Source: Gracilibacillus orientalis (lineage in GTDB: Bacteria > Bacillota > Bacilli > Bacillales > Amphibacillaceae). Taken from it: DNA of 64,000 bases. Below, one piece after another: positions 8,320-54,981 of the stretch. The notes beneath the pieces were generated by a model. That model did not search any database, had not been told where the DNA came from, and was given only the letters and a program-made list of their open reading frames with translations. A program made the position numbers and the translations under genes. Numbering within the stretch: position 1 is the first letter of the stretch; each line of letters opens with the position of its first letter. The stretch covers positions 124,001-188,000 of the forward strand of contig NZ_FOTR01000004.1 of assembly GCF_900114645.1 (NCBI RefSeq), given 5' to 3'.

Positions 8320-8859
8320 AAACCATAAACTGCGCAGTAACTAATTGCGTAGATTTGCTTTCTTCCACCTTTTTGATGGTGAGTGCTGGGAAATGCTCCG
8401 GCAGAATACTTCGCTTTCACCCGAGGGCACAAGTGCGACATCTGTTCAACTTACAGTGTCTTCTATGCCACGGGCACGGCCTCAGCCTCCTCAGAAAACA
8501 AAGAACGTTTTCTTGTGGGGTCTTCGGCTCGCGCTGTTCCTGTAGGAGTCTGCGTATTCTGCCTCCGCTTTGCGTAGTGTTCTGATTATCGAAAGAAGTG
8601 AACTTTTGGGAATATATTCTGTGAATTCTTTCTTACTTGATAAGAAATACACACTAAGCTGCGGAAAAATGCGACACTCCTGGGGAAACAGTGCGAGCCG
8701 AAGATCCACTTGGTGAAGTGATTTTCTTCACCAAGTTAGCTGAGGCCGTGCCCCCGGAAAGGGAGTGTTTTTCCGCAGCGACGAATTAGCACACTCAACT
8801 TCAGAGGAATGGAAGAAAGCTCATTAAACAGAATTTTCACAACTTCGCAGTTTGTATCT
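8320..8859. repeat. Double-hairpin repeat element, copy A
   Basis: Non-coding element of 540 bp. Its ends are imperfect terminal inverted repeats around AAACTGCGCA (left 8327, right as CGCAGTTT from 8846). The first 23 bases are identical to copy C at 54507. The left arm is 8400-8563, closed by GGCAGAATAC pairing with GTATTCTGCC, with an apical hairpin at 8493-8513. The right arm is 8658-8779, closed by GCTGCGGAAAAA with TTTTTCCGCAGC, with an 11-bp apical hairpin at 8708-8736. The two arms are inverted copies of each other (shared gggcacggcctcagc and tcttcggctcg). About 50 bp of extra sequence sits in the left arm near 8425-8470. Short reading frames inside have no ribosome-binding site and reflect DNA conservation. 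Confidence 0.85.
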
Positions 8860-8883
8860 TTTGTGAATCAGAATAGAGCAGGG

Positions 8884-8908
8884 CCGGGTGGGTTTTATCC
8901 GGTTTTCT
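8884..8908 (+). terminator. Terminator-like hairpin to the right of copy A
   Basis: CCGGGT (8884) pairs with ATCCGG (8897) and is followed by TTTTCTT. Similar CCGGTTTT-type structures follow copies B and C. This one lies between the repeat and the trmK start, so it could also act as an attenuator of trmK. Confidence 0.4.
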
Positions 8909-8937
8909 TATCTTTAAATAGTGAAGGGACAAGAATC

Positions 8938-9633
8938 ATGTTATCAAAAAGACTAGAACAATTAGCTGACTATCTCCAGGAGCCTATATATTTTGCCGAT
9001 ATTGGTTCTGATCATGCTTATTTACCATGTTATGTTTGTGCACGGCATGAGAATGCAACTGCCATTGCTGGGGAGGTTAATCAAGGTCCGTTTGAAAGGG
9101 CAAAGCAAACCGTTAGAGAACAGGGGCTAGGCGATCGTATTGAAGTAAGAAAAGGAAATGGCTTAGAAGTAATTAGAGAAGAAGAAGAAGTCAATCAAAT
9201 TACCATTGCCGGTATGGGAGGTAAACTGATCCGTACCATTCTGGAGGAAGGTAAATCTAAATTATCTGGTGTTTCACGCTTAATTTTACAACCTAATATT
9301 GATGGCCCAATCGTCCGTAAGTGGTTAATAGAGCATCAATATCAGATTGTTGCAGAAGACATTATTTCAGAAGATGGCTATATTTATGAGATCATTGTCA
9401 GCGATTATCGAAATGCTCCTATTGAACTTTCGGGAAGAGAACAATTATTTGGTCCATATCTTCTGAAGAAAAAAAGTAATGTTTTTTACGAGAAATGGTT
9501 TAATGAGAAAGAGAAACGTATGAAGCTGATTAACCAGATGAACCAAGCAACTGACTTACCTATTGAAAAAATCAAAAAGTTAGAAATAGAAATGGAATGG
9601 ATAGAGGAGGTAATAGGAGATGACGACCGTTAA
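8938..9633 (+). CDS. trmK: tRNA (adenine(22)-N1)-methyltransferase
   Basis: S-adenosylmethionine-dependent enzyme that makes m1A22 in tRNA. The 231-residue protein begins MLSKRLEQLADY and has the family motif I segment FADIGSDHAYLP, then IAGMGGKLIRTIL. The C-terminal part is a coiled coil, as in the characterised TrmK. I chose the ATG at 8938, preceded by GAAGGG. A longer open frame from 8809 would add 43 residues that read through the end of the repeat element and a hairpin, and the family does not have them. It overlaps the next gene by 14 bp. The same pairing is found in B. subtilis (yqfN-yqfO). Confidence 0.92.
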   Translation: MLSKRLEQLADYLQEPIYFADIGSDHAYLPCYVCARHENATAIAGEVNQGPFERAKQTVREQGLGDRIEVRKGNGLEVIREEEEVNQITIAGMGGKLIRTILEEGKSKLSGVSRLILQPNIDGPIVRKWLIEHQYQIVAEDIISEDGYIYEIIVSDYRNAPIELSGREQLFGPYLLKKKSNVFYEKWFNEKEKRMKLINQMNQATDLPIEKIKKLEIEMEWIEEVIGDDDR

Positions 9634-10732
9634 GGATGTAATCCGTTTATTTGAAAAATGGGTTCCTAAGCACTACGCAGAGTCTTGGGATAACGTCGGC
9701 TTACAAGTGGGGGACAAAAATCAAAAAGTTAATAAACTAATGGTCACTTTAGATGTAATAGACGCTGTTGTAGATGAGGCTATTGAAAATAACGTTGATC
9801 TCATTATTGCGCATCATCCACTATTATTCAAAGGGTTAAAGAATATTGACTTTCAAGATCCCAAAGGGCGCGTAGTTAAAAAATTAATCCAGCATAATAT
9901 ATCCGTTTATGCTGCACATACCAATCTTGATGTAGTCAATGGCGGTGTGAATGACTTGTTGGCAGAACGATTAGAACTTACTATGACAAAGGTTTTAGTG
10001 CCAACAGTAGAGGAACAATTTTTAAAATTTATCGTCTATGTTCCGCAAACACACTTAAATGATCTGGTAGATGCTTTAGGGGACGCTGGAGCCGGATATA
10101 TTGGTAACTACAGCCATTGTACTTTCCGAACTACAGGAACCGGTGCATTCAAACCGTTAGAGGGAACTAATCCATTCCTTGGTAGACAAGGTGAAATAGA
10201 AGAAACCATTGAATATAAGGTTGAAACTATTATTAAAAAAACACAATTGTCTTCAGTCATACAGGTAGCAGAGAAGGCACATCCATATGAAGAAATGGCA
10301 TATGACTTAGTACCGCTCGCTAATAAAGGAAAACAAGAGGGATTAGGTCGTATTGGTAAGCTGCCTCAGCCGATGAAGTTATCAGAGTACGCTGAAGTCG
10401 TAAAACGCAATTTAAATATTTCGACATTGCGTTATATTGGGGACCAAGATCAAATGATTAAGAAAGTTGCTGTACTAGGTGGTAGTGGTAAAGGATTTAT
10501 CGATATAGCTCGTAATGCTGGTGCTGATCTATATATTACCGGCGATTTAACCTTTCACGAAGCACAAGACGCCGAAGAAGCTGGTCTTTGTCTGATTGAT
10601 CCAGGTCACCATGTGGAAGAAGTAATGAAAGAAGGGGTAAAAGATTATTTCTTAACAAACCTTGATGCTTTACCAGAAAAAATAGAGGTAGACATCTCAC
10701 GACTATCAACGGATCCATTTCATTATCAATAA
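9620..10732 (+). CDS. yqfO: Nif3-like dinuclear metal centre protein
   Basis: Member of the NIF3/GTP cyclohydrolase I type 2-like family, which forms a toroidal hexamer with two metal ions per active site. The physiological reaction is unknown. The length of 370 residues fits the long form, which carries a PII/CutA-like insert in the middle (residues about 130-235). Metal ligands are visible in IIAHHPLLF (H65, H66), in AAHTNLD, and in the C-terminal DPGHHVEE. It overlaps trmK and ends at a strong bidirectional terminator. Confidence 0.9.
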   Translation: MTTVKDVIRLFEKWVPKHYAESWDNVGLQVGDKNQKVNKLMVTLDVIDAVVDEAIENNVDLIIAHHPLLFKGLKNIDFQDPKGRVVKKLIQHNISVYAAHTNLDVVNGGVNDLLAERLELTMTKVLVPTVEEQFLKFIVYVPQTHLNDLVDALGDAGAGYIGNYSHCTFRTTGTGAFKPLEGTNPFLGRQGEIEETIEYKVETIIKKTQLSSVIQVAEKAHPYEEMAYDLVPLANKGKQEGLGRIGKLPQPMKLSEYAEVVKRNLNISTLRYIGDQDQMIKKVAVLGGSGKGFIDIARNAGADLYITGDLTFHEAQDAEEAGLCLIDPGHHVEEVMKEGVKDYFLTNLDALPEKIEVDISRLSTDPFHYQ

Positions 10733-10737
10733 TACTG

Positions 10738-10776
10738 AAGAAGCAAGCGCCATAATGGCGCTTGCTTCTTATTTTT
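10738..10776. terminator. Bidirectional terminator, yqfO / ispH
   Basis: A 14-bp perfect stem, AAGAAGCAAGCGCC with GGCGCTTGCTTCTT, 5-base loop, T run on the plus side. It separates two convergent genes and overlaps the end of ispH. Confidence 0.88.
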
Positions 10777-11713
10777 TAGCTTTTACTTTTGGTAAGATCT
10801 TGTCTTTCTGTACTTTCGAAGTGCGATCCCAAGTTTCAGGATCATTTGGGTTATATTGTTCGATAAATTTGATTACTTCTTTTGCGATTGGTGTCGGTGT
10901 AGAAGCACCAGCAGTAACGGCAACTTTGGAAACACCTTCTAACCATTCATATTGAATTTCAGATACATCAGCTATTCGATAAGCTTGAGTATCAGCTTTT
11001 TCAATGGAAACTTGAGCTAAGCGGTTGGAGTTATTACTGCGTGGATCTCCAACAACTAAAGTTAAATCGGCATCCTTTGCTTGTTCTGCTACTGCTTCCT
11101 GTCGAACCTGGGTTGCCATGCAGATTTCCTGTTCCAACTCTGTTTGTGGATATTTTTCTTGTACTCTTAACATCACATCATGAACATCCCATTGACTCAT
11201 CGTAGTTTGATTTGTTACTAATATTTTTGCTGAATCGATCTTAAGTTTTTCGGCATCTTCCTGATTTTGTATTAAATGAACATGGTCCGGTGCTACACCT
11301 ACTGCACCCTCAGGTTCAGGATGGCCTTTCTTGCCAATATAGACAATTTCATAATTATCTTTTACTTTATCGCGTATTAAATCATGTGTTCTCGTAACAT
11401 CAGGACACGTTGCATCCAGTACAGTCAGCCCTTTTTTTTCTGCACGATTTTTTACCTCTGGTGAGACACCATGAGCTGTAAAAATAACAGTACCGTCTTC
11501 AATGTTTTCTAAAAGCTCACCGCGATTATTTCCGTCTAATGTGTAAACACCTTGTTCTTGAAAGGCGTTGGTTACATGCGAATTATGAACAATCATACCA
11601 AGTATATAAATAGGGCGAGGTAGATTGGGATCTTTCACTGCATTTTGAGCAATTACCATTGCATCGACAACTCCATAACAATATCCTCTAGGAGCAATCT
11701 TAATTACTTCCAT
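10769..11713 (-). CDS. ispH: 4-hydroxy-3-methylbut-2-enyl diphosphate reductase
   Basis: Final enzyme of the MEP isoprenoid pathway, reducing HMBPP to IPP and DMAPP with a [4Fe-4S] cluster. The cluster cysteines are visible in APRGYCYG (C12), DATCPDV and EICMAT. The 314-residue length is normal. I start it at 11713, where GAGGGGG precedes the ATG by about 6 bp; a longer frame to 11749 adds a segment lacking in the family. Its pathway partner ispG is also in this window, at 16.0-17.1 kb, on the same strand. Confidence 0.95.
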
Positions 11714-11848
11714 CGTGGTTCCCCCTCTGTACTTTCTACTAGAGATCAAGTAAAATGTTAATAACGGACTTGAATTTGTCCAATACTTATATTATAAAGG
11801 TATTTGCTACAATTGACAAAGATATTTGCTAACTAGAAGGAGATTAAC

Positions 11849-13162
11849 ATGGAAAAACATTTATTTAAACAATACGCATTGGATGATTGGATGAATGAAG
11901 TGATTGGTAAGCTAGGATTTTATGAGCCAACTGCCATTCAAGCCAAGGTCATTCCAGAGGCTTTAAAAGGAAAAGACATTATCGGACAATCGGAAACCGG
12001 ATCAGGCAAGACTCACGCCTTTTTGATTCCATTATTGAATAAAATCGATATCGATCAATCCAAAACACAAATTGTGTTAACCGCACCAACTAGAGAACTT
12101 GCTACTCAAATATATGATGAAGCGAAAAAAATCATGCAATTATCTAATGATGAAGATAAGTGGCGTGCGAAACTCATTATAGGCGGCACAGATAAAAAAC
12201 GAATGGTGGAAAAAATGAAACAAGCACCACACATAGTGGTAGGTACACCCGGACGAATTTTAGATCTGGTTCAGGAAGGTGTATTAGATATTTATTCCGC
12301 AAAGTCTTTTGTAATGGATGAAACAGATTTAATGTTGGAATTAGGACTTATTGAAGAAATTGACCGGATACTTACAAATGCACATCCTGACATTCAAGTG
12401 ATGGTGTTTTCGGCAACTATTCCGGAAAGATTACAGCCTTTTCTCAAGAAATATTTACATGCACCTCTTTATGTCAATATTGATGATCGGTTAGCTCCTG
12501 AAAATCTGGAGCATCGTTTAATTGATCTTCGACATCGCGAACAAGCTGATGTCATTTTTGAAATTTCCAAGGTAATTCAACCGTATTTAGCTATTATTTT
12601 TACGAACGGAAAGGAAAATGCTAATCAGTTAGCAAAAAATTTACAGGCTAAAGGATTAGAAGTTGGTCTCATTCATGGTGGTCTTAAACAGCGAGAACGA
12701 AAAAGAGCCCTTAAAGAAATTCAGCAGCTAAAATATCAATATATCGTAGCGACAGATCTTGCTTCACGTGGTATTGATATTAAGGGTGTAAGCCATGTAA
12801 TTAATGCAAATTTACCAAAAGAGGAATCGTTCTATTTGCATCGTGTCGGCAGAACAGCTCGAGCGGGAATGGAAGGTACAGCGATAAGTCTTTACCATGA
12901 GGAAGATGTAGCACTTATTAAAAAATTAGAGAAAAAGGGATTAACTTTTACATTTTATGATGTCTCAAAAGGAGAATGGCGTGAAGCTAAAGCATGGAAT
13001 GTAAGGCAAAAGCGCGAAAGACAGGAAAATGACACGGAGAAAAAAGCGTGGCAACAAGTAAGAAAACCTCAAAAAGTGAAGCCGGCTTATAAGAAAAAAT
13101 TAAAAAAACAACAACAAAACGCAAAAAAGAAAATAGAAAGAAATCAATTTAAGAAAAAATAG
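11849..13162 (+). CDS. cshB: DEAD-box-type RNA helicase CshB
   Basis: ATP-dependent RNA helicase, linked in Bacillus to cold adaptation, RNA turnover and ribosome assembly. The protein has 437 residues with motif I SETGSGKT, Ia PTRELA, Ib TPGR, motif III SAT and motif [12 protein letters not shown]. Motif II reads DETD in place of DEAD. A lysine-rich tail (residues about 395-437) is typical of CshB and binds RNA. AGAAGGAG lies before the ATG. It is followed within 20 bp by nfo, as in B. subtilis (yqfR-yqfS). Confidence 0.93.
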
Positions 13163-13179
13163 AAAAGGTGAGAGGTATT

Positions 13180-14073
13180 ATGTTGAAAATTGGATCACAC
13201 GTATCATTGAGTGGAAAGAAAATGCTTTTAGGTTCAAGTGAAGAGGCAGTGTCATATGGTTCAACCGCCTTTATGATTTATACAGGAGCTCCACAAAATA
13301 CTAGAAGAAAACCAATCGAAGAGTTAAATATTGAATTAGGTAGTCAACATATGGAGCAAAACGGTATAGTCGATATGGTTGTCCATGCACCATATATTAT
13401 CAATATTGGTAATACGACAAAGAAAGAAACATTTGAACTAGGAGTAACGTTTTTAAAGAATGAAATTGATCGAACAGAAGCACTTGGCGCTAAACAAATT
13501 GTACTTCATCCAGGTTCACATGTTGGGGAAGGTGTAGATAAAGGAATAGCCAAAATTATTAAAGGATTAAATGAGGTATTGGATCCCAATCAAGATGTTC
13601 AAATTGCATTGGAAACAATGGCTGGTAAAGGGTCAGAAATTGGTCGCAATTTTGATGAATTAGCAAGAATTATCGATGGTGTAACACATAATGAGAAACT
13701 TTCGATCTGTATGGATACTTGTCACATTCATGATGCTGGATATCCGATTGTTGATGATTTTGATGGTGTCTTAAATGAATTTGATAAAATAATTGGTCTT
13801 GATCGATTAAAAGTAGTTCATATTAATGACAGTAAAAATGTACAGGGTGCCGGAAAAGACCGTCATGAAAATATTGGCTTTGGACATATTGGGTTTGAGA
13901 CGATTCATAATATTGTCCATCATGATCAATTAGCAGAATTGCCTAAGATTTTAGAAACTCCTTATGTTGGAGAAGATAAGAAAAATAAAAAACCTCCATA
14001 TAAATTTGAGATTGAAATGTTGAAGAATGGTTCTTTTGTTAAAGATTTAAAAGAACAGATTGTAAATCAGTAA
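13180..14073 (+). CDS. nfo: Endonuclease IV (AP endonuclease)
   Basis: Cuts DNA 5' to abasic sites in base excision repair, using a three-zinc TIM barrel. The protein has 297 residues. Zinc-ligand segments are present in order: [45 protein letters not shown] and [10 protein letters not shown] take the ATG at 13180 as the start, since [12 protein letters not shown] matches the family N-terminus; the GTG at 13168 lies within the ribosome-binding region. In B. subtilis Nfo acts on spore DNA damage during outgrowth. Confidence 0.95.
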
Positions 14074-14136
14074 TTTCTTAACCTGACTGGAATATATTCA
14101 CTTTCTAAATATCTTCCAGTTGCAATATTTAAGATT

Positions 14137-14174
14137 AGCCCCTTACATTTAAAATGAAAGGGGCTTTCTTTTCT
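14137..14174 (+). terminator. Terminator after nfo
   Basis: AGCCCCTT pairs with AAGGGGCT, extended by CATTT/AAATG, followed by a T-rich tract. Confidence 0.8.
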
Positions 14175-14285
14175 TTAATCACGGAGCTAATCTTACGTAA
14201 AACCACTCACTGATGGATGTCTCTTACTTTTTTGATTGAAGGAAACATCAATTAAATCACTTTTCGTGGATTGCGTTCTTCTTAA

Positions 14286-14570
14286 TTATTTGAAATAATC
14301 TTCTACTCCATATTCTTTAATCAATTTATGAAATAGTTGTTGGCAAGCTTTGGCGGTTTTGATGTCTGTAATTTGAGCTAGTTTTTTTAGCATTTGTGCT
14401 CGGTCTTCGGCAATTAACGGATCATAACTGCTCCTCTTTAAATGACCGGATATTAACTTCGCTTGTTCTTCAGTAATAGAAATGCGATATTTATTTGCAT
14501 ATTCTGTTATTTCCTTTGTACTGATTTTCTTCAATTTACTCACCATTATACGTTTAGTTAAACCGTTCAT
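14286..14570 (-). CDS. yqfT: DUF2624 family protein (YqfT-like)
   Basis: A small soluble protein of 94 residues, predicted helical, with no membrane segment. The segments STKEITEYANKY and ITDIKTAKACQQLF resemble DUF2624, represented by YqfT next to nfo in B. subtilis. The function is unknown. AAGGAG is found 8-9 bp before the ATG at 14570. It is transcribed against both neighbours and probably forms its own unit. Confidence 0.7.
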   Translation of the reverse strand: MNGLTKRIMVSKLKKISTKEITEYANKYRISITEEQAKLISGHLKRSSYDPLIAEDRAQMLKKLAQITDIKTAKACQQLFHKLIKEYGVEDYFK

Positions 14571-14754
14571 ATTAAAAACTCCTTTGTAGTCGTTTCCTTA
14601 TTTTATGCAATAATGTTTAAGTATTGTGCATATAGGTAATAAGAGTAGAGTGCGAATTGTTTGCAATAATCGACATTTTTCGCTAACATAAACCGCTGTA
14701 GATTAAAACTACAATGTCAAGCTATGCTTTGACAGCAAAGGAGTGTATTTTTAC

Positions 14755-15462
14755 ATGTCAAAAAAAATACAATGGATTAGCATTGTATTGGCTTTGGTGC
14801 TTATAGGTTCGAGCTATTATCAAGTAAATTCATATAAATCAGAAATGCAAGCACTGAAGAAAGATAAGGTTGAATTAAAGCAAGAGATGCAAAATGTGGA
14901 ATCTCAAGCTCAATATATCTTTAATCAAGCTAATCAAAAAGAAATTGAATTAACGCACGAAACTTGGCCAAAATATTTTGATATTGCAGAAGTCATGGTG
15001 GAGGAAAGCGATGGTAAATTCTTGAGGCCATGGGCCATTTATTTAGTAAAAGAAGCAGAAACGTATGGCATCGATCCATTTATCGTCTATGAACTGTTAA
15101 AAATTGAAACAGGCGATAATTTTGATCCAGAATTAGTTGGTCCGGAAACAAAATATGGCCATGCGTACGGTATGGCACAGTTTATGAAAAATACAGCACC
15201 ATGGATAGCAGATATGGCTGAAATGCCATATGAAGATGAGCTTTTATTTGATCCATATTATTCCATAAAATTATCTTTAGTCTATGTAGATTATTTATAT
15301 GAACAATATGACAATTGGGACGAAACATTGACAGCCTATCATCGTGGTATGGCAGGGTTGGAACAATATAAGCTTAAAAATGGCCATGCGAATAGTGAAT
15401 ATGCCACACGCATTCAAACTAATGCCCAAAAGTATAAAGAATTTGTAGCATATGCGCCGTAA
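14755..15462 (+). CDS. Membrane-anchored lytic transglycosylase-like protein
   Basis: Probable peptidoglycan-cleaving enzyme outside the cell membrane. The 235-residue protein has an N-terminal membrane anchor (residues about 5-24) and a coiled coil (about 28-55). An SLT-type lysozyme-like domain follows. The likely catalytic glutamate is in YELLKIETG, followed by the family segment YGMAQFMKNTAPW and a C-terminal YHRGMAGLEQY. I took the ATG at 14755, with AAAGGAG 11 bp upstream; the GTG at 14743 sits on that site. Confidence 0.8.
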   Translation: MSKKIQWISIVLALVLIGSSYYQVNSYKSEMQALKKDKVELKQEMQNVESQAQYIFNQANQKEIELTHETWPKYFDIAEVMVEESDGKFLRPWAIYLVKEAETYGIDPFIVYELLKIETGDNFDPELVGPETKYGHAYGMAQFMKNTAPWIADMAEMPYEDELLFDPYYSIKLSLVYVDYLYEQYDNWDETLTAYHRGMAGLEQYKLKNGHANSEYATRIQTNAQKYKEFVAYAP

Positions 15463-15549
15463 TTGGAAAGTAGAATTTACCACGTAAGACGAAAAAGAAA
15501 TAAGGCATACTAAAAATGTACCTCTAAAAGAAAGGGAGGGTATAACAGT

Positions 15550-15969
15550 ATGCCAGAGAATCAGGATCAACAGCAGCGTGTTGAGAATGCGCCCAAAATC
15601 GATAATGGTCATATCGATGAAGCGCCGCAGTCGAAACAATTTGTAAATACTGATGAATTGTATGCAGTAGATGAGGCATATAAAAGGGAAGCTGAGGCGT
15701 CTGCTGAGTTATCAGCAAATGAATTTAACCGTCCGATTGAGTCTGAAGAACAAGAAACCGAAATGCAATCAGATGTCAATACAGCATATGGTTGGGCAGG
15801 ATTAGTTTTAGCTTTAGCTTCCTTTTTTGTTTGGCCATTAATACTTGCTATTGGTGGTGTGGTCTTAGGGTTTATTTCTAAGCGACAAGGTGCCGATACG
15901 CTAGGTAATGCGTCTATCGTAACAGCGATTGTTTCTATATTAATATCGCTGATATTTGTACCGTTATAA
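15550..15969 (+). CDS. yqfX: DUF4190-type membrane protein (YqfX-like)
   Basis: A 139-residue protein with an acidic, polar N-terminal half (residues 1-78) and two transmembrane helices (about 80-103 and 115-138) joined by GFISKRQGADTLG, the signature of the DUF4190 domain. It matches YqfX of B. subtilis in position beside ispG. The function is unknown. A GGGAGG site precedes the ATG. Confidence 0.7.
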   Translation: MPENQDQQQRVENAPKIDNGHIDEAPQSKQFVNTDELYAVDEAYKREAEASAELSANEFNRPIESEEQETEMQSDVNTAYGWAGLVLALASFFVWPLILAIGGVVLGFISKRQGADTLGNASIVTAIVSILISLIFVPL

Positions 15970-15973
15970 TAAA

Positions 15974-16010
15974 GAAGGGCAAGCCTTTTAGTAAAAGGCT
16001 TGCCCTTTCT
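15974..16010. terminator. Bidirectional terminator, yqfX / ispG
   Basis: A near-perfect stem, AAGGGCAAGCCTTTT with AAAAGGCTTGCCCTT and a 3-base loop, between convergent genes. Confidence 0.88.
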
Positions 16011-16019
16011 CATGAAATA

Positions 16020-39724: not shown

Positions 39725-39811
39725 AATAATTAAAGAAAGTATAAAATCCTTGGTATAACAGCGTTTTGTCTTATAGAAGCGAAATAAATAAAGAGTGTTT
39801 TGAAAGGTATA

Positions 39812-40222
39812 GAGTGCTGGGCACAGCTCCGGAAAAATGCTTCGCTTTCCGCGGGCATGGCTTCAGCTAATTTTTTAAAATAAAATTCATTTTATTTTAA
39901 AAAATGGATCTTCAGCTCATGCATTCTCGCGCCGTGAGTCTTCGCATTTTTCCTACGCTTTAAGGATAGGCTCTACACCTATGGTGACAGCTAATATTTT
40001 GGCTTTTTATAGCGATAGAAAATAGGGTTCTACATGATGCAGTAAACGCAAAAATGATTCTATATAATAAGTTGTAGAACATAACAATAGCGCAGGCCGA
40101 CCGTTTCGACTCCTGGGGAATTAGCGTGATCTGAAGATCCACTTTGAAAAGCGTTTTCCTTTTCAAAGTTAGCTGAAGAGCATGCCCCCGGAAAGCGAAA
40201 CGGTCAGCCGAAGCGGTTGCCG
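39812..40222. repeat. Double-hairpin repeat element, copy B
   Basis: Second member of the family. It opens with GAGTGCTGGG, shared with copy A at 8381. The left arm is 39831-39953, closed by GGAAAAATGC with GCATTTTTCC; its apical hairpin is a perfect 16-bp AT stem at 39870-39905. The right arm is 40099-40205, closed by GACCGTTTCG with CGAAACGGTC; its apical hairpin is 10 bp at 40141-40169. The spacer between arms is 145 bp, longer than in A and C. I do not see the AAACTGCGCA terminal repeats here. The right boundary is approximate. Confidence 0.8.
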
Positions 40223-40290
40223 TAGCAGATGAAAACATTTCATCATTTCTAACTTGGTTAGAGAACATTATCCTGGTTTATAAACGAAAG

Positions 40291-40317
40291 GACCAGGTGG
40301 GCTTTCCCGGTTTTTCT
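40291..40317. terminator. Terminator-like hairpin to the right of copy B
   Basis: ACC-AGGT-GGG pairs with CCCGGT and is followed by TTTTTCT. It is the counterpart of the structures after copies A and C. Confidence 0.35.
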
Positions 40318-40324
40318 AATACAC

Positions 40325-43534: not shown

Positions 43535-43549
43535 TATTTTGTTCTCCTT

Positions 43550-46400: not shown

Positions 46401-46440
46401 AACATCAGTAGTCAGAGCTACTGATGTTTTAGTCTTTTAT
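46391..46440. terminator. Strong bidirectional terminator, yqzE / yqhG
   Basis: A perfect 21-bp stem with a 6-base loop; left arm 46391-46411 starts AAAAGACTAAAACATC, right arm 46418-46438. The stop codons of both convergent genes lie inside it. Confidence 0.9.
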
Positions 46441-47226: not shown

Positions 47227-48875
47227 AGTAAATTCTCCTTGGCTTCGTCGGCTTGTTGATAAGATTGAATCACAGATGTTAAATTGTTTAACTTTATTTT
47301 AGATTCGCCAACCGATCTAGACTCTTCAAAAATCTGTTCTACTTCTCTTTCTAGATTGGGAAGATGCAAATCACTTAGAATTTGTTCAAGATTACCGATG
47401 ACATTCTCGAATAAATGAATTTTATTGTACAACAAATTCATTACATGTTCATCCACTGTATTTTTTAAGGCAAAATTATAAATTTTTACATCGTTTTCCT
47501 GGCCAAAGCGATGGATTCTTCCAATTCTTTGTTCAAGACGCATTGGGTTCCAAGGCAAATCATAGTTAATTAAACGATGGCAAAATTGAAGGTTTATTCC
47601 TTCTCCGGCAGCTTCTGTTGCGATCATAACTTGTGCGTGATGTTGAAACAACTGACGCATCCAATCTTTTTTGCCTTTTTTAAATCCCCCTCGATAAATG
47701 ACAGATGGAATCTTTTCTTGTTGTAAGAGCCACTGCAAATAAATTTGGGTAGCACGGTATTCTGTAAATACAATGAATTTTTCATCTGATGATTTGAGTA
47801 ACTCTACTAATTTTAATGCTTTAGCGTGATGTGGCAGTTGCTCAATAGATGATAATAATTCGTTTGTTTCTGGAAGTTCAACGTTGTCCTGTTGCTGCAC
47901 CCATTTTTTTATGGAAAGGTAACAAGCTTCACGAGAGCTACAGAATTCCCTTACATAGGTGATGGCAGAAATAGCCGTGTTATGTTTAAAAAATCGTTCA
48001 ACATGATGATAAGTATCCATCTCTTGGTCTGTAAAAGGCACCCAAATGGTTTCAATTTCACGCTTTGTCCAATGAACTCCTGTATCAGCTCTTCGGTTAC
48101 GGACCATTACTTTACTGATTAATTGTTTTAAATAAGGATCTTCATCCACTTTTCGTTTTTCTTCTCGATGTTGTTTGATGAAGTCATCATAAGTTCCAAG
48201 ATAGCCTGGTTTTAATAGACTGATTAAATTAAAGATATCGGTTAATTTATTTTGAACAGGTGTAGCGGTTAATAACAGGCAATATTTTTTGGATAACTGT
48301 TGGACAAAGTGAAAATTTTTTGTTTTATGGTTTTTTAATTTGTGTGCTTCATCGACAATAACAAAGTCATAGTCCTGTTCAAGAATTGTTTGACGATGCC
48401 TAGCTGATTTAGCTGTATCTAATGTACTAATCAGAATATTAGTATTTTGCCAATCGACACGTTTTCCAGACGTCACTGTAGGGATTAGAAATTTCTGATT
48501 CAATTCCAATGCCCACTGGTTAACAAGTGAAGCTGGAACTAAAATAAGCACTTTTTGAACTAAACCTCTTAACATATACTCTTTTAAAATCAAACCAGCT
48601 TCAATTGTTTTCCCTAAGCCAACCTCATCTGCTAACAAGGCTTTGCCGTTCATATGTTGAATGACTTTTTCAGCACATTTTATTTGATGTGGTAAAAATT
48701 CTAAATGTGGTAAAAACTTAGGTGCGACAAGATCTTTGAAACTAGGTACTTTCATGGTTTCAGCAATTTGATAAGATTGCTTAAATAATTGCCAATCTGC
48801 TAACTGAGACGGGGTTTTGATTGCTTCCTCATACTCTTGTATAAATGTTTCATCTCTCAAAATTGGTATACTCAT
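47223..48875 (-). CDS. yqhH: SNF2-family helicase (YqhH)
   Basis: Superfamily 2 DNA/RNA translocase of 550 residues, RapA/HepA-like core. Motif I is DEVGLGKTIEAGL, motif II DEAH, motif III LLLTATPVQN, and the C-terminal half has ATEAAGEGINLQFC and RIGRIHRFGQ. No accessory domains are evident. I start at 48875, with AGGA 8 bp upstream; an ATG three codons earlier is too close. In B. subtilis the gcv operon lies just beyond it; here it does not. Confidence 0.88.
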   Translation of the reverse strand: MSIPILRDETFIQEYEEAIKTPSQLADWQLFKQSYQIAETMKVPSFKDLVAPKFLPHLEFLPHQIKCAEKVIQHMNGKALLADEVGLGKTIEAGLILKEYMLRGLVQKVLILVPASLVNQWALELNQKFLIPTVTSGKRVDWQNTNILISTLDTAKSARHRQTILEQDYDFVIVDEAHKLKNHKTKNFHFVQQLSKKYCLLLTATPVQNKLTDIFNLISLLKPGYLGTYDDFIKQHREEKRKVDEDPYLKQLISKVMVRNRRADTGVHWTKREIETIWVPFTDQEMDTYHHVERFFKHNTAISAITYVREFCSSREACYLSIKKWVQQQDNVELPETNELLSSIEQLPHHAKALKLVELLKSSDEKFIVFTEYRATQIYLQWLLQQEKIPSVIYRGGFKKGKKDWMRQLFQHHAQVMIATEAAGEGINLQFCHRLINYDLPWNPMRLEQRIGRIHRFGQENDVKIYNFALKNTVDEHVMNLLYNKIHLFENVIGNLEQILSDLHLPNLEREVEQIFEESRSVGESKIKLNNLTSVIQSYQQADEAKENLL

Positions 48876-49140
48876 AACACCCATCCTATCATTGATACAT
48901 GTTGTATTGTTATTGTGGTCAGATTAGCCAGAGTTATACATATTGATTGTCAAGAATTTCTTTAGTTAAAGAATATTAAATAACACTCTCTACAAAAAAG
49001 AATGGAAGGGAGCAAATCCTATACAGAGTTATTTCGTAGTTTATGTTTACTGTGGTTGGTGGTATAAAAAGAGAATGTATAACAATGGGGAATTAATGAA
49101 AATCAGTAAATTTACGTTAACATTTGCTTGTCATGTAAAT

Positions 49141-49172
49141 AAAAAAGTCGAGTGTAGACACTCGACTTTTGC
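49141..49172. terminator. Terminator at the yqhL 3' end
   Basis: AAAAGTCGAGTGT pairs with ACACTCGACTTTT; on the minus strand it follows the yqhL stop codon. Confidence 0.8.
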
Positions 49173-49568
49173 TTAATAATCTAATTTTTTGGTTTTCTTA
49201 ATTTTGCCTGTCCATTTTTTATATCCGCCTTGTAATTGATAGAGGTCTTTATATCCTTGTTTATTAAGGATTAATGCCGCTCTCGTAGAACGTGAACCAT
49301 TCTGGCAATATAAGTAAACAGGTTTATCTTGCCTTAATTCTGTTAAACGCTGTTTTAATTGAGTTAGAGGAATGTTTCTGGCACCAAGAATGTGACCACC
49401 GTCATATTCCTTCGGTTCTCTTACATCAATAAGCTGTGCTTTACGATAACCTTCACGAAATTCATTTTCCGATAATGGTTTTAGTATTTTTTTTTGTTTG
49501 AAATAGCGGTATACGGTAAATAAAATAAAGGCAATTAATATACCGATTAGAATGTATAATTCTGTCAT
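49173..49568 (-). CDS. yqhL: Membrane-anchored rhodanese-like protein (YqhL)
   Basis: Sulfurtransferase-like protein of 131 residues with an N-terminal transmembrane helix (about 4-20) and one rhodanese domain. The active-site Cys is in VYLYCQNGSRST. AQLIDVREPKEYDGGHI is the typical entry of the domain. The start at 49568 has GGGGGA about 8 bp upstream; an in-frame TTG at 49583 overlaps that site. The sulfur acceptor is unknown. Confidence 0.85.
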   Translation of the reverse strand: MTELYILIGILIAFILFTVYRYFKQKKILKPLSENEFREGYRKAQLIDVREPKEYDGGHILGARNIPLTQLKQRLTELRQDKPVYLYCQNGSRSTRAALILNKQGYKDLYQLQGGYKKWTGKIKKTKKLDY

Positions 49569-49741
49569 TTTTGAATCCCCCAATGTTTTTCTAAAAAATC
49601 CTCTAAAAAGGATTATACCATTTAATAGTGTGAAATAAAGAAAAAAATTTTAAAGATTGGATTTTAAGAGATGTCTTGTCTCACCTGTGATTCTATTGTA
49701 TGCTTTTATTTACATAATATATATAGTAATGGAGGATGTAT

Positions 49742-50155
49742 ATGCCTACACCCACAATGGAAGATTACATAGAACAAATTTATATACTCATGGAAACAAA
49801 AGGGTATGCAAGAGTTTCAGCAATAGCTGAAGCTTTACAAGTACAACCGTCATCTGTGACGAAAATGGTACAGAAATTAGATCGGGATGCCTATTTGAAT
49901 TATGAAAAGTATCAGGGGCTTATCTTAACTTCGAAAGGAAAAAAAGTAGGGGAAAGATTAGTATATAGACATGAATTATTGGAAAAATTCCTAAGGATCA
50001 TTGGTGTTGATGAAAAAAATATTTATACTGATGTTGAAGGAATAGAGCATCATCTCAGCTGGAATTCAATAGATCGTATTGGTAATCTGGTGCAATTTTT
50101 AGAAGATCCTGAGCGCTCCAAGGAATTAAAGGATTTTCAGTCTAAAAAGGATTAG
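49742..50155 (+). CDS. mntR: Manganese-responsive repressor MntR
   Basis: DtxR-family regulator that, with Mn(II), represses manganese uptake genes. The 137-residue protein keeps all six metal ligands of the B. subtilis protein: D8, E11, H77, E99, E102 and H103. The winged helix (residues about 20-60) contains [12 protein letters not shown] as recognition helix. The ATG at 49742 stands 6 bp after GGAGG; the ATG at 49736 abuts that site. Confidence 0.95.
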
Positions 50156-50224
50156 GTTAACAAGTTCTATCTACTGGTACAAATGTATATATATAATGTG
50201 ATACCAGTTAGATAGGGTGATATC

Positions 50225-51118
50225 ATGAAAATTGATGGGGTTTTCTCAGGTGGTGGTGTTAAAGCTTTTGCGTTTTTAGGTGCGATCCAGGCATTTGAAG
50301 AAAAGAACATACAATTTGAAAGAGTCGCTGGTACATCTGCAGGAGCCCTCTTTGCTACGTTGATTGCGGCTGGTTATACAGCAAAAGAAATGAAAGAGAT
50401 TTTTTTAGAGTTACCCCTTGAAAATTTCCTTGATCAATCGAAATGGAGTAGTTTGCTTCCTTTTTTAAAATGGTTAACTTTATATAACACCATGGGATTA
50501 TATCGAGGTAATTATTTTGAAGATTGGTTGAATGAAAAATTGATGGAGAAAGGTTTGTCTTCTTTTTCAGATCTGCCACCAGGGAAATTAAAGATCGTTG
50601 CTGCAGATTTAACGTTAAATCGTGTTGTGGTATTTCCGAATGATCTGATGAAAAATTATCATATAGAAGCAGATTATTTTTCTATCTCGAGAGCAGTTCG
50701 TAGCAGTATCTCCATACCTTATTTTTTTCGTCCTTCTAAAATTATCAATCCTCTCACAAGACAAAAAAGTATTATTGTCGATGGTATGATTTTAAGTAAT
50801 TTCCCATTATGGTTATACGATCGAGGTAATAAAAAGCGAGATCGCCCGATCTTAGGTTTGCAATTAACAGACCCTGCACAATATTATTATAATCAGAAAA
50901 TCAAGAATGCTATTGATATGTTAAAGGCAGTGATAGGTACGATGAGAAAAGCCTATGATACAAGATACATTGCAGAAAATGTAGCGAAAGACATTTTGTT
51001 TTTTCCTATCGATGATGTAAGTGCTACAGATTTTGATATTACATTGGATAAAAAGCAAGAATTAATGGAATTAGGGTATCAACGGACGATGCAATTTTTA
51101 TCTAAGTGGTCCTTATAA
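50225..51118 (+). CDS. yqhO: Patatin-like phospholipase (YqhO)
   Basis: Probable lipid acyl hydrolase of 297 residues. The oxyanion loop GGGVKAFAFLG, nucleophile Ser in GTSAG (residue about 40) and the catalytic Asp in VDGMILSN form the patatin Ser-Asp dyad. No signal peptide is seen, so it is cytoplasmic or peripheral. It stands between mntR and yqhP, as in B. subtilis. Confidence 0.88.
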   Translation: MKIDGVFSGGGVKAFAFLGAIQAFEEKNIQFERVAGTSAGALFATLIAAGYTAKEMKEIFLELPLENFLDQSKWSSLLPFLKWLTLYNTMGLYRGNYFEDWLNEKLMEKGLSSFSDLPPGKLKIVAADLTLNRVVVFPNDLMKNYHIEADYFSISRAVRSSISIPYFFRPSKIINPLTRQKSIIVDGMILSNFPLWLYDRGNKKRDRPILGLQLTDPAQYYYNQKIKNAIDMLKAVIGTMRKAYDTRYIAENVAKDILFFPIDDVSATDFDITLDKKQELMELGYQRTMQFLSKWSL

Positions 51119-51163
51119 AAAAAGAACAGAGCGCACGTATTATAACGACGCTCTGTTCTTTTT
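51119..51163. terminator. Bidirectional terminator, yqhO / yqhP
   Basis: A perfect 15-bp stem, AAAAAGAACAGAGCG with CGCTCTGTTCTTTTT, 15-base loop. Confidence 0.82.
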
Positions 51164-51529
51164 CTTTTGTTTATTACCCTCGATAACCCTCAAGTGTGTG
51201 TGATTTTTTCTAGTTTTTAATGGTCGAGGTGATTTCTTAGTTGCTACATTATGTTTGATAGGGCTAGGTTGCATACGATTATTATTTTGTTGGTATTTAT
51301 ATTTTTGTTTCGATTGTTTCACAGCTTTACGATATTTTCTGAGTTCATTAGGTGTTCGTCTTCTTAAAAAGAAGAAGTACACTAAACCAAACATTGCTGC
51401 ACCGATTAACAAGGATATAAATAGGAATTTTAGTAAACCGAGTGTGTCAGTAATTAGGAATGAGATAAAACCGAACACAGCTAAACCGATTAATGCATAA
51501 ACAACGATAGAACCTATGTTTCGATTCAT
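51140..51529 (-). CDS. yqhP: YqhP family membrane protein
   Basis: A 129-residue protein with two N-terminal transmembrane helices (7-27 and 31-53) followed by a very basic tail rich in Lys, Arg and Asn. Size and place match YqhP (SA1362 family). AAAGGAGGA precedes the ATG. The function is unknown. Confidence 0.75.
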   Translation of the reverse strand: MNRNIGSIVVYALIGLAVFGFISFLITDTLGLLKFLFISLLIGAAMFGLVYFFFLRRRTPNELRKYRKAVKQSKQKYKYQQNNNRMQPSPIKHNVATKKSPRPLKTRKNHTHLRVIEGNKQKKKNRASL

Positions 51530-51751
51530 TTTAGCTTCCTCCTTTACATAAAGTATACACGAATTAAAGTACTTTCTATAGTTATACCCGTTATTTGCTG
51601 GATTTTATACAAGAAATTTAAAATTACTTTAAACAATGGTATTAAAGCGCTTTATTTTTATTGTATTAGAAAGAAAGCAAAATAACTAGAGTTTAAGGAC
51701 ATTTAGCATGAAAAAATTGATTTTGGTTAGCCTATTTTTGAGGTGATAATA

Positions 51752-52240
51752 TTGAGACGTGTGAATCATAGAAAAAATCAACATGATGAAATTTCTTTAA
51801 TTCCAAAAACAATTAGTATTGGAATTTTTGGCGGGCTTATCTGGGCGACAGTAGCTGCGGTTGCCGGTTACTTTAGCTTTACGAAGGTAACTCCCAAAAG
51901 TTTTGTGTTACGGTCATGGTTGCAAACAAAATGGTCTGATCAATGGCTAGGGGAAGTTATTTCAATATGTATTATTAGTTTATTATCCATTGGATTAGCA
52001 TTATTATATTATGTTGTATTAAAAAAGTTTCCAGGAATATTACCAGGTATAATGACGGGAATTGTCTTATGGTTTATTATTTTTTGGTTATTTGAACCGA
52101 TTTTTACCAATATACCACCTTTTTATGAATTAGATAGTGATACAGTGGTTACTACGGTTTGTTTATTCATTTTATATAGTGTGTTTATCGGGTACTCTAT
52201 TTCTTTTGCTTATCAGCAGCACAGGGGTGAAAATAATTAA
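51752..52240 (+). CDS. yqhR: YqhR family membrane protein
   Basis: A 162-residue protein with four transmembrane helices and a basic N-terminus (MRRVNHRKNQ). GGIWATVAAVAGYFSF and PGIMTGIVLWFIIFW resemble YqhR of B. subtilis, which precedes aroQ there. The start is a TTG at 51752 with GAGGTGAT 8 bp upstream. yqhQ, usually beside it, is missing. Confidence 0.78.
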   Translation: MRRVNHRKNQHDEISLIPKTISIGIFGGLIWATVAAVAGYFSFTKVTPKSFVLRSWLQTKWSDQWLGEVISICIISLLSIGLALLYYVVLKKFPGILPGIMTGIVLWFIIFWLFEPIFTNIPPFYELDSDTVVTTVCLFILYSVFIGYSISFAYQQHRGENN

Positions 52241-52291
52241 ATAACTATGTTAATATAGTGAAGAAAGCTTGTTGGAGATGGAGTGAAGGAA

Positions 52292-52726
52292 ATGGGAAAG
52301 TTACTTTTATTAAATGGACCGAATTTAAATCGTTTAGGTAAAAGAGAACCAGATGTATATGGCAGTGAAACATTAGAGGATATTGAGAAAAAAGTACGAA
52401 GTGTGCTGGAACCATATCAATATCAATTAGATTCTAGCCAATCCAATCATGAGGGAGAATTAATTGATTGGATCCATGAGGCAGAAGGAAAATATCATGG
52501 GATCATTTTTAATCCCGGGGCATATACACATACTAGTATTGCGCTAAGAGATGCAATCAGCTCTATTACAGTTCCAGTTATCGAGGTACACATATCTAAT
52601 GTACATAAGCGAGAGTCATTTCGTCATACTTCCATGTTAGCTCCTGTTTGTAGCGGTCAAATTGTAGGTTTAGGTACAAATGGATATCGTTTAGCAGCGA
52701 TGTATTTTTTAGAAAGTAATTTATAG
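52292..52726 (+). CDS. aroQ: Type II 3-dehydroquinate dehydratase
   Basis: Converts 3-dehydroquinate to 3-dehydroshikimate in the shikimate pathway. The 144-residue protein has LLLNGPNLNRLGKREP at the start, the QSNHEGELIDW loop, NPGAYTHTS, and EVHISN with the catalytic His region. GGAG stands 8 bp before the ATG at 52292; the GTG at 52283 is less well placed. The protein is a dodecamer in characterised members. Confidence 0.95.
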   Translation: MGKLLLLNGPNLNRLGKREPDVYGSETLEDIEKKVRSVLEPYQYQLDSSQSNHEGELIDWIHEAEGKYHGIIFNPGAYTHTSIALRDAISSITVPVIEVHISNVHKRESFRHTSMLAPVCSGQIVGLGTNGYRLAAMYFLESNL

Positions 52727-52740
52727 AAAGGGAGTTTGGG

Positions 52741-53811
52741 ATGAAACGTCTTGAGAAATTATGGAATTTATTAAAACATGAAAGAATGGATGGCTTATTA
52801 ATAACCAGTCCGGTTAATATTCGATACCTCACTGGTTTTACTGGCACCTCAGGTGTAGCACTTATTACCAATAACGATGCTTTCTTTGTTACTGATTTCC
52901 GCTACACTGAGCAAGCGAGTGATCAGGTTATAGGGTTTGACATTAAGGAACATAAAGGACCAATTCAAGACGAAGTCGCAGAATTAGTAAAGTCATTGTC
53001 AATCGAATCTGTTGGGTTTGAAAAAGAGGGCATGACTTACGGTCTGTATGAAAAATATAATAAAGCAGTAAAAGCAAACTTGATTCCCTCAGGCGGATTG
53101 ATTGAGAAATTACGCTTGATTAAAGATCAAGATGAGATTAGTATAATAAAAGATGCTTGTAAAATTGCCGATGATGCGTTTGACCATATTTTAGATTACA
53201 TAAAACCGGGAGTAAAAGAGATCGACATTTCCAATGAATTAGAATTCTTTATGAGAAAGCAAGGCGCTACTTCATCAAGCTTTGATATTATAGTAGCCTC
53301 CGGTTATCGTTCTGCATTACCGCACGGTGTAGCATCATCAAAAGAAATTCAGTCAGGCGAATTAGTAACATTGGATTTTGGTGCGTTATATGAAGGATAT
53401 GCTTCAGATATTACGAGAACGATTGCCGTTGGGGATATATCAGAAGAATTAGCGACGATCTATAATACAGTTCTTGAAGCACAAGTAAAAGGTGTAGAAG
53501 GAATAAAAGCGGGAATAACTGCAAAACAAGCTGATGCCTTAACAAGAGACCATATTGATCATAAAGGCTACGGCAAATACTTTGGTCACTCTACAGGCCA
53601 TGGACTGGGACTAGATGTGCATGAAATGCCCGGACTATCATTTCGCTCTGATGCTGTGTTGGAACCGGGGATGGTAGTAACTGTTGAACCAGGAATCTAT
53701 GTTCCAAACGTTGGTGGATGCCGCATTGAAGATGACATTATAATAACCGAAGATGGCCATGAACGATTAACACATTCACCTAAGGACTTAATTCGCTTAC
53801 CAGTATCGTAA
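52741..53811 (+). CDS. yqhT: Xaa-Pro aminopeptidase / prolidase (M24)
   Basis: Metallopeptidase of 356 residues with the pita-bread fold, probably cleaving X-Pro peptides. Metal ligands are visible in LDFGALYEGYASDITRT (two Asp), GHSTGHGLGLDVHE (His), TVEPGIY (Glu) and CRIEDD (Glu). AAAGGGAG lies before the ATG. It sits directly upstream of efp, a coupling conserved in Bacillaceae. Confidence 0.93.
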   Translation: MKRLEKLWNLLKHERMDGLLITSPVNIRYLTGFTGTSGVALITNNDAFFVTDFRYTEQASDQVIGFDIKEHKGPIQDEVAELVKSLSIESVGFEKEGMTYGLYEKYNKAVKANLIPSGGLIEKLRLIKDQDEISIIKDACKIADDAFDHILDYIKPGVKEIDISNELEFFMRKQGATSSSFDIIVASGYRSALPHGVASSKEIQSGELVTLDFGALYEGYASDITRTIAVGDISEELATIYNTVLEAQVKGVEGIKAGITAKQADALTRDHIDHKGYGKYFGHSTGHGLGLDVHEMPGLSFRSDAVLEPGMVVTVEPGIYVPNVGGCRIEDDIIITEDGHERLTHSPKDLIRLPVS

Positions 53812-53832
53812 ACATTTTAGAGGAGGAATTAG

Positions 53833-54390
53833 ATGATTTCAGTAAATGATTTTAAAACAGGTTTAACAATAGAGGTAGATGGAGGTATTTGGCAAGTAAT
53901 GGATTTCCAACATGTGAAACCGGGTAAAGGTGCTGCATTCGTTCGTTCCAAATTGCGAAACCTCCGTAGCGGTAATATTCAGGAAAAAACGTTCCGTGGT
54001 GGGGAAAAAGTAAACAGAGCACATATTGAAAATCGTAAAATGCAATACTTATATGGTTCTGGTGATACCCATACATTTATGGACACTAAGTCATTCGAAC
54101 AAACAGAGCTCCAAGCAGATCAGATTGAACGAGAACTACAATTTATTAAAGAAAACATGGAAGTAAATATTTTAACATATGAAGCAGAAACTATCGGAGT
54201 AGAATTACCTAATAACGTTGAACTCACTGTAACAGAAACAGAACCTGGAATAAAAGGTGATACAGCGAGTGGAGGAACCAAGCCAGCAACACTAGAAACA
54301 GGTTTAATAGTTCAAGTACCTTTCTTTGTTAATCAAGGAGATGTATTAGTAATCTCTACAGCAGAAGGTAAATATATTTCCCGCGCTTAA
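53833..54390 (+). CDS. efp: Elongation factor P
   Basis: Relieves ribosome stalling at polyproline stretches. The 185-residue protein has the three-domain form. The modified residue is K32 in the loop [11 protein letters not shown]; in Bacillus this lysine carries 5-aminopentanol. The C-terminal signature is present around [20 protein letters not shown] precedes the ATG. A strong terminator follows. Confidence 0.96.
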
Positions 54391-54409
54391 TTTACTACAT
54401 AGGAACCAT

Positions 54410-54445
54410 AACTACTAAGTGATAATCACTTAGTAGTTTTTCTTT
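54410..54445 (+). terminator. Terminator after efp
   Basis: AACTACTAAGTGAT pairs with ATCACTTAGTAGTT around a single base, then TTTTCTTTT. Confidence 0.85.
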
Positions 54446-54506
54446 TATTGACAAACTTTATCCAAATAGATCCATTATTATCTAGTAAGCACATAATCGT
54501 GAACAG

Positions 54507-54981
54507 AAACCATAAACTGCGCAGTAACTCTATAAAGAACTTCCTTCCATTCTGCATTTTGATGATTGCTACAATACGCGCTACGGCAAGATACTTCGCT
54601 TTCCACGGGCACGGCCTTAGCCTCCTCAGAAAACAAAGAACGTTTTCTTGCGGGGTCTTCGGCTCGCGCTGTTCCCGTAGGAGTCTACGTATCTTGCCTC
54701 CGCTTTGCGTAGTGTTCTGATTATCGAAAAAAGAGAACTATGGAATGATATTCTATGGATTTCTTCTTGCATGATAAAAATGCACACTAAGCTGCGGAAA
54801 AATGCGACACTCCTGTGGGAACAGCGCGAGCTGAAGATCCCGCAGCGAACGTATGTGAGCGAGGAAGCTGAAGCCGTGCCCACGGAAAGGGAGTATTTTT
54901 CCGCAGCGATGTCTAGCACTCCATTTCCGAAAGAAAGGAGGCTTACCAAAGAAAATTTTCACTAGTGCGCAGTTTGTATCT
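54507..54981. repeat. Double-hairpin repeat element, copy C
   Basis: Third member, 475 bp. Terminal inverted repeats are exact over AAACTGCGCA (54514-54523) and TGCGCAGTTT (54966-54975). The left arm is 54585-54698, closed by GGCAAGATAC with GTATCTTGCC; its apical stem is AGAAAAC/GTTTTCT (54628-54648). The right arm is 54791-54907, closed by GCTGCGGAAAAA with TTTTTCCGCAGC; its apical part is only weakly paired. The central spacer (54699-54790) resembles that of copy A. It fills the efp-spoIIIAA gap where B. subtilis carries yqhV. Confidence 0.85.

Follow-up and report, generated by a model that had tools for sequence, protein, structure and literature searches.

Three intergenic blocks, here termed copies A, B and C, were analysed in a stretch of 64,000 nucleotides from Gracilibacillus orientalis (contig NZ_FOTR01000004.1, positions 124,001 to 188,000; in the following, the window). 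They are probably copies of a noncoding transposable element of about 0.6 kb, similar to a miniature inverted-repeat transposable element (MITE), with two hairpins and a fold under selection, probably at the DNA level. In the proposed layout, the ends are asymmetric and have a short inverted core in common, two hairpin modules of approximately 125 nt face each other head to head across an AT-rich spacer, and the right end holds a terminator. The element is present in high copy number, it was inserted at sites that are empty in relatives (copy A and locus L035), and its hairpins have been turned over at old shared insertions. The helices show paired change and adjacent hairpins carry unlike stems.

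Paired change and unlike neighbours in the hairpins

An earlier reading of the window, made from the letters alone (the sequence-only reading), had described six inverted arms, and all six pairs are present in the sequence (Table 1). With a covariance model derived from 41 G. orientalis hairpins, exactly six matches were obtained in the window (E ≤1e-6), arranged as three pairs, and at E ≤0.01 only the reverse strands of these six were added. The second hairpin of every pair is the first kind reversed. The underlying alignment comprises 41 of 47 distinct candidates; apart from one chimera that is considered below, one empty row, L046, L051 and L066 (insert-bearing or shifted) and L061 (misplaced start) were omitted by hand.

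The same reading held that the stem differences are paired changes, which is borne out in the G. orientalis genome, in its relatives and in distant genomes. For the 41 hairpins, 92.3% of the cells are paired as compared to 82.2% with partners shuffled, and covariation amounts to 0.297 versus 0.118 (0/500 shuffles) and to at most 0.092 in slid controls. The corresponding values are 93.3 versus 74.6% and 0.444 versus 0.134 for 121 hairpins of named genomes, and 94.7 versus 66.6% and 0.604 versus 0.137 for 22 distant hairpins, both alignments being fitted to the model and therefore biased towards structure. In the distant set, all ten basal pairs are altered on both sides. A count made without the model pairing on 258 distinct hairpins (rows below 100 nt omitted) gave 8.51 Watson-Crick pairs among the ten basal positions, as compared to 5.46 with shuffled mates (maximum of the shuffles 5.72). 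At least 7/10 basal pairs are formed in 335 of 380 distinct hairpins, and 91 different 8-nt stems occur among these 335. Since the basal sequences vary between copies yet are nearly always complementary, the folded shape and not the letters appears to be conserved. Neither unpaired differences nor mere decay of the arms was found, a few chimeras apart: L059 and L069 of G. orientalis each contain a hairpin whose basal arms derive from different stem classes.

Complementarity of this kind could also arise by mechanism, with no selection on the fold, if strand switching during replication of the quasi-palindromes copied one arm onto the other. The stems are indeed mostly Watson-Crick with few wobbles; in the largest set, 2221 of 2345 cells in the first seven basal pairs are of this type, with 53 GT and 33 AC. 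In an earlier set there were 22 GT and 118 AC, or 17 and 30 when two positions that are invariant within a single stem class are disregarded. However, conserved inner non-Watson-Crick pairs remain uncorrected (the T.G columns 25/116 in 41/41 rows and 23/137 in 22/22 rows), and the core is kept across the class while the stems are not. Strand switching is thus an improbable explanation. The rarity of wobbles mildly favours a DNA hairpin and is no proof of it.

The layout had been likened to pairs of repetitive extragenic palindromic (REP) sequences in bacterial interspersed mosaic elements (BIMEs), and 114 of 119 distinct close neighbours are in fact oriented head to head, after removal of four duplicate pairs from overlapping loci (before removal 118/123, with 1/94 same-stem pairs). 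Pairs with either stem below 7/10 paired (24/114) were left unscored, and of the remaining 90 only one, L069 with its chimeric hairpin, has the same stem twice. When stems were re-paired within each genome, a mean of 23.0 same-stem pairs was obtained (minimum 10 in 2000 trials). When every stem combination was counted once per genome, the result was 1/61 versus 11.8 (minimum 1), and restriction to G. orientalis and the genomes G002, G009 and G015 gave 1/34 versus 6.6 (minimum 1). The inner bodies without their stems are at least 90% alike in 0/62 pairs as compared to 12.9% in the null (five genomes, hairpins of 105-135 nt, doubles retained).

Unlike stems would let each hairpin fold on itself, and only unlike neighbours would persist because identical facing hairpins would pair mutually or, forming a long palindrome, be eliminated. 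The two blocks that were folded, copies A and C, are far more stable than dinucleotide shuffles (z -8.8 for copy A as DNA, z -15.7 for copy C as RNA); in the minimum-energy fold of either whole copy, hairpin 1 pairs with hairpin 2. A transposase acting in trans would recognize the module in its folded form, as a DNA hairpin that is either extruded or single-stranded. If so, the pairing and some core letters would be constrained, and the basal stem may be free to drift or to be exchanged.

Insertion at empty sites, turnover and distribution

Copy A lies between cccA and trmK in a spacer of 686 bp, which measures 59-94 bp in the genomes G001, G002, G009, G011, G012, G013, G015 and G016. The copy is missing at this site in eight of the nine relatives fetched (16 searched); the spacer of G007 (811 bp) contains a different, decayed block. 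In G002, G009 and G015 the empty spacer reads ..TTTTTTC-AT-CTTT.., and the junctions show that the mobile unit is larger than the 8320-8859 assigned to it by the sequence-only reading. A TA target as in IS630/mariner was considered and rejected, as the empty sites fit AT and not TA; the junction at L035 is too AT-rich to be read. The L035 copy is missing at its site in G002, G009 and G015, and one copy of G009 is missing from G. orientalis and G002. No coding capacity, high copy number and insertion at empty sites are features shared with MITEs. The termini are short and inverted and a single AT duplication was observed; no matching autonomous insertion sequence (IS) was seen, no systematic search for it having been made.

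At L058 and L045 the right-end junction is common to G. orientalis, G002, G009 and G015, and the hairpins differ. From left to right, L058 contains GGCAGAACAC and then GGCAAGATAC in G. orientalis, GGAAAAACAC and then GGCAGAATAC in G009, GGCTGCCCAC and then GGCAGAATAC in G015, and a damaged GGCAGAATAC followed by a stem of the GGAAAAA class in G002. The spacer of copy C likewise harbours elements with differing hairpins in G. orientalis, G002, G009, G012, G013 and G015, and is devoid of an element (160-226 bp) in G001, G005, G010 and G014. These differences at shared insertions indicate that resident sites undergo replacement or exchange of their hairpins. Ectopic homologous recombination may explain this exchange. 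As the only process that spreads and reshuffles the blocks, with no transposase, it would account for the differing hairpins and the chimeric stems but is contradicted by insertion where no prior copy existed (copy A, L035), which makes it very unlikely.

The family is not limited to three copies, as had been assumed. A BLAST search with copy A against the G. orientalis genome gave 118 pieces, which were joined to 40 places, and the covariance model found at least 133 hairpins with 150 of 1139 candidates scored. Element copies are located at or near the ends of contigs C5, C8, C10 and C20, so the draft probably breaks in copies and the counts are lower bounds. The same model detected the hairpin in 54 of 61 neighbourhood genomes, G. 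orientalis included (38/45 genera), and at E ≤1e-6 in 99 of 398 genomes (34/145 genera) of an even sample of the class Bacilli, where strict filters were applied and at most eight candidates were scored per genome. Among the matches listed from a pattern scan are Halobacillus, Gracilibacillus, Aquibacillus, Sediminibacillus, Thalassobacillus, Lentibacillus, Evansella, Terribacillus, Virgibacillus, Planococcus and others. Copy C had no match in phages. Among plasmids, the only record matched by copy A is from Radiobacillus and bears chromosomal-type genes; the distant hairpin L389 matches this record and one from Planococcus.

A structured RNA or an element of 3′ untranslated regions with a host function, such as termination or mRNA protection, has to be considered as well; the copies would then be useful and not only selfish. 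Such a role would agree with the terminator-like hairpin at the right end, with the retention of the L058 and L045 insertions in four species and with the gene context in G. orientalis: 37 of the 40 places could be classified by simple open reading frame (ORF) calls, 29 being located between tandem, seven between convergent and one between divergent genes (adjacent ORFs of the window: 44 tandem, 10 convergent, 10 divergent). Few wobble pairs are found, however, and orthologous sites are empty or occupied by other hairpins. No Rfam family was matched at its gathering score in the window and seven loci, copy A giving weak matches only (e.g. tsr24, 19.2 versus 50 bits). Moreover, DNA suits the data better than one transcript because every double element holds the module in both orientations. 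We therefore consider a host RNA function unlikely.

The hairpin in IS1182-type elements and the search for a mover

With REP, BIME and REPIN elements the present element has in common that asymmetric hairpins form head-to-head pairs, which are intergenic and of high copy number, and this would suit mobilization by RAYT, a Y1 transposase. The REP/REPIN-RAYT unit is given as 20-40 bp with a GTAG or CGTC tag in the available text of PMC3733652, whereas the hairpin described here (~125 nt) is several times larger and belongs to an element with its own ends and a terminator. An association with RAYT is also missing. The G. orientalis genome, for which a check for a RAYT gene had been suggested, has no intact Y1 gene that could be found but one remnant of 35 profile positions. 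Over 61 genomes the presence of hairpin and Y1 disagrees, with many hairpins and no Y1 match in G002, G004, G011 and G015, and Y1 matches and no hairpin in G023, G038 and G051. Only 1 of 36 Y1 neighbourhoods examined contains a hairpin. Movement by RAYT is accordingly most improbable. The Y1 TnpA remnant of G. orientalis (L031) adjoins a TnpB-like gene, as judged by eye.

A different association was found with the IS1182 family. ISSau3 carries the hairpin between its left GGCTGGGACATAA end and the transposase start (60.9 bits, E 1.5e-14). A hairpin from a distant genome matched 108 plasmid records, 105 of them from Staphylococcus, and in 7 of 15 among the matches listed the annotation names an IS1182 or ISSau3 transposase. 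Six of 30 loci with the transposase domain PF13751 have a hairpin at E ≤0.1. As judged by eye, it is located inside the IS, between left end and transposase, in L400 (42.8 bits) and L412 (60.5 bits); in L409 and L412 an IS1182-type IS with GAGGCCACTGAAAAAG-like ends sits inside the arm or loop of such a hairpin; L410, L416 and L422 are remnants or neighbours. Single hairpins also occur inside other elements of distant genomes, with the ends (by eye) GGGACATAA..TTATGTCCCAG, GGGGCTGTCCGAAAAG..TTGGACAGTCCC, and TCAGNCTGT..CTGA beside a duplicated terminator palindrome. The single-hairpin GGGACATAA blocks have ISSau3-like ends by eye.

As far as the available text of PMC5678879 and PMC4923244 goes, IS1272, a member of the IS1182 family, inserts in stem-loops and replaces them, duplication being modelled as another outcome, and some other members are cited there as also inserting in palindromes. 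IS1182-derived MITEs are listed for Methanosarcina in the accessible part of PMC3852290. In L396 and L400, and in L377 and L391 where no transposase was seen, the insertion has a copy of one and the same terminator palindrome at either side, which is the pattern that duplication of a stem-loop target would leave. An internal noncoding hairpin is common to autonomous members (ISSau3, L400, L412) and to the present element, whereas copies A, B and C differ in having two hairpins and other ends and in lacking a transposase gene. Given that the module is common to IS1182-family ISs, some of which target stem-loops, an IS1182-type enzyme would be the likeliest past mover. The mover of copy A may be lost, may belong to another family or may sit in an assembly gap. 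The element itself is best classed as a nonautonomous mobile element, neither a REPIN nor, judged by its ends, an IS1182 derivative.

Alternatively, the hairpin module might be the true mobile unit, landing in stem-loops as IS1272 does, with the basal stem as a remnant of the target palindrome and several unrelated backbones carrying the module. The stems would then be complementary by birth and would record the landing site of each lineage. At least four backbones carry the hairpin (by eye), and in some distant single hairpins the stem extends into arbitrary flank (L383, CTGTTG/CAACAG; L385, GTTGATT/AATCAAC; also L376, L379, L382, L389 and L390). Over 19 loci this extension is a weak excess, with a mean of 6.5/14 paired versus 5.3 shuffled and 1/19 at ≥10. 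Many hairpins have conserved letters (GCTNCG, CNNCGC) outside the variable stem, which speaks against a target remnant and weakens stem capture as the sole explanation. We regard this alternative as possible but rather doubtful.

Several observations weigh against a transposable element with a fold selected at the DNA level and an IS1182-type mover. No enzyme could be tied to the double-hairpin element, as the PF13751 profile gave no match in G. orientalis, G002, G009, G011, G013 and G015, all of which are hairpin-rich, and 24 of the 30 IS1182-type loci lack a hairpin, contig ends truncating some of these. The terminal sequences of copy A (AAGA..TCTT) do not correspond to those of IS1182 elements, from which the ends of A, B and C all differ by eye, and the 2-bp duplication derives from one clean site. 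Kinship of the copies inflates the shuffle tests, which ignore relatedness. The 41-hairpin alignment was made without the chimera L059:2681-2804, whose stems do not match, and 45 of the 380 distinct hairpins have less than 7/10 basal pairs, the examined ones being insert-bearing or damaged. Two copies with three hairpins, L051 and L070, carry GGCAGAATAC in both outer hairpins, and an unlike one lies in the middle. Finally, the wobbles give no consistent signal for DNA or RNA, since GT exceeds AC in the largest set and the reverse is true for the earlier one.

Anatomy of the copies and relation to known repeats

By eye, the same order was observed in the 40 places of G. orientalis and in 20 of G012: a left end with TAAACTGCGMAGTAA, hairpin 1, an AT-rich spacer, the reversed hairpin 2 and a right end with CGCAGTTTGTRTCTAC. 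The G. orientalis copies have a subterminal CTTCC motif at the left end, and many have a terminator-like sequence near GGACCGGGTGGGTTTTNCCCGGTTTTTCTTA (both by eye). Each hairpin comprises a basal stem (approximately 10 bp), the segment CGCTTTCC-NN-GGG opposite CCC-NN-AGGAG, a middle helix and, at its apex, a further hairpin, with an optional side arm of approximately 50-60 nt at one position. This side arm (8419-8470 in the window; L112, L113, L120) seems to have its own paired changes between species, GACA-CTG/CAG-TGTC versus AACA-CTAC/GTAG-TGTT, by eye. Copies with three hairpins are L044, L051, L059 and L070. Contrary to a single family of A, B and C, copy B belongs to a second subfamily with other ends (by eye) and the stems GGCTGACCGT and GGAAAAATGC.

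Table 1. Features of copies A, B and C in the window
Feature	Position	Strand	Basis or remark
Copy A, whole mobile unit, 619 bp	8291..8909	+	junctions versus empty cccA-trmK spacers
Copy A, probable 2-bp target duplication AT	8289-8290 and 8910-8911		empty-site comparison
Copy A, left terminal core AAACTGCGCAGT	8327..8338	+	inverted match to 8842-8853; visible by eye at many of the 40 places
Copy A, hairpin 1, basal stem GGCAGAATAC/GTATTCTGCC	8395..8568	+	model match 8449-8568, 77.1 bits; starts late because of an insert in that arm
Copy A, hairpin 1, arm pair	8400-8409/8554-8563		
Copy A, hairpin 1, side arm, ~50 nt	starts 8419		
Copy A, hairpin 2 (reversed), stem GCTGCGGAAAAA/TTTTTCCGCAGC	8658..8779	-	120.3 bits
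Copy A, hairpin 2, arm pair	8658-8669/8768-8779		
Copy A, right terminal core ACTTCGCAGTTT	8842..8853	-	inverted match to left core
Copy A, right end, terminator-like hairpin GGGCCGGGTGGGTTTTATCCGGTTTTCTT	8881..8909	+	inside insert by empty sites; terminator by eye
Copy B, approximate bounds	39731..40319	+	likeness to own subfamily (L294, L297, L299); no empty site seen
Copy B, hairpin 1, stem GGAAAAATGC/GCATTTTTCC	39826..39958	+	91.5 bits
Copy B, hairpin 1, arm pair	39831-39840/39944-39953		
Copy B, hairpin 2, stem around GACCGTTTCG/CGAAACGGTC	40090..40214	-	103.6 bits
Copy B, hairpin 2, arm pair GACCGTTTCG/CGAAACGGTC	inside 40095-40118/40186-40209		
Copy C, left terminal core	54514..54526	+	92% inverted match to 54963-54975
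Copy C, hairpin 1, stem GGCAAGATAC/GTATCTTGCC	54580..54703	+	139.5 bits
Copy C, hairpin 1, arm pair GGCAAGATAC/GTATCTTGCC	outer ends of 54585-54622/54661-54698		
Copy C, hairpin 2, stem GCTGCGGAAAAA/TTTTTCCGCAGC	54791..54907	-	113.8 bits
Copy C, hairpin 2, arm pair	54791-54802/54896-54907		
Copy C, right terminal core	54963..54975	-	inverted match to left core
Copy C, terminator-like right end	55006..55032	+	by eye; position as in copy A

In agreement with the sequence-only reading, no protein gene lies inside the blocks; three overlapping ORFs (100-107 aa) have no Pfam match. According to a Pfam search, copy A is flanked by genes for cytochrome c (cccA) and TrmK, copy B by those for a sulfatase-domain protein and a metallo-beta-lactamase-fold protein, and copy C by those for EF-P and SpoIIIAA. 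Two further observations concern other arrangements. In L375 (213-683), from a genome of about 2.4 Mb, three hairpins of the same orientation are repeated in tandem with a period of 189 bp. A mobile hairpin that looks separate, a dispersed palindrome on CACTGATCATAGTCTCACTTTAT and its reverse complement, is found beside or around elements in Gracilibacillus-type genomes (L284, L285, L287, L340, L345, L350).

The small repeats bcr1, RUP, EFAR and BOX are noncoding, dispersed and folded, as is the present element. Unlike these mobile repeats (bcr1, RUP and EFAR in the available text of PMC3733652, BOX in that of PMC2267715), it has a core common to many genera, follows a rule of unlike stems and places its module in several element backbones. 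Bhal-1 of Bacillus halodurans, a stem-loop family of 74 bp, 36 copies and type I with conserved structure, could be the same family; it is known here by its description and not by its sequence, from the accessible part of PMC2267715. The statement that no description of such blocks is known therefore stands in part: none was found in the open-access literature, where core strings of 16-24 letters had no match (most subscription journals lie outside this scope), but Bhal-1, as described in that part, may be a partial prior sighting.

The link to the IS1182 family, in which the hairpin is also part of the ISs, was absent from the sequence-only reading. One folded module was found in 99 of 398 genomes sampled from the class and reaches dozens of copies per genome in many close relatives. 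It represents a natural experiment in selection on the shape of a nucleic acid, with a second rule that neighbours are unlike. Two subjects are thereby joined, noncoding repeat pairs and IS1182-type ISs that use stem-loops as targets, and the question of which factor reads a DNA hairpin becomes accessible to tests in harmless bacteria of soils and salt lakes.

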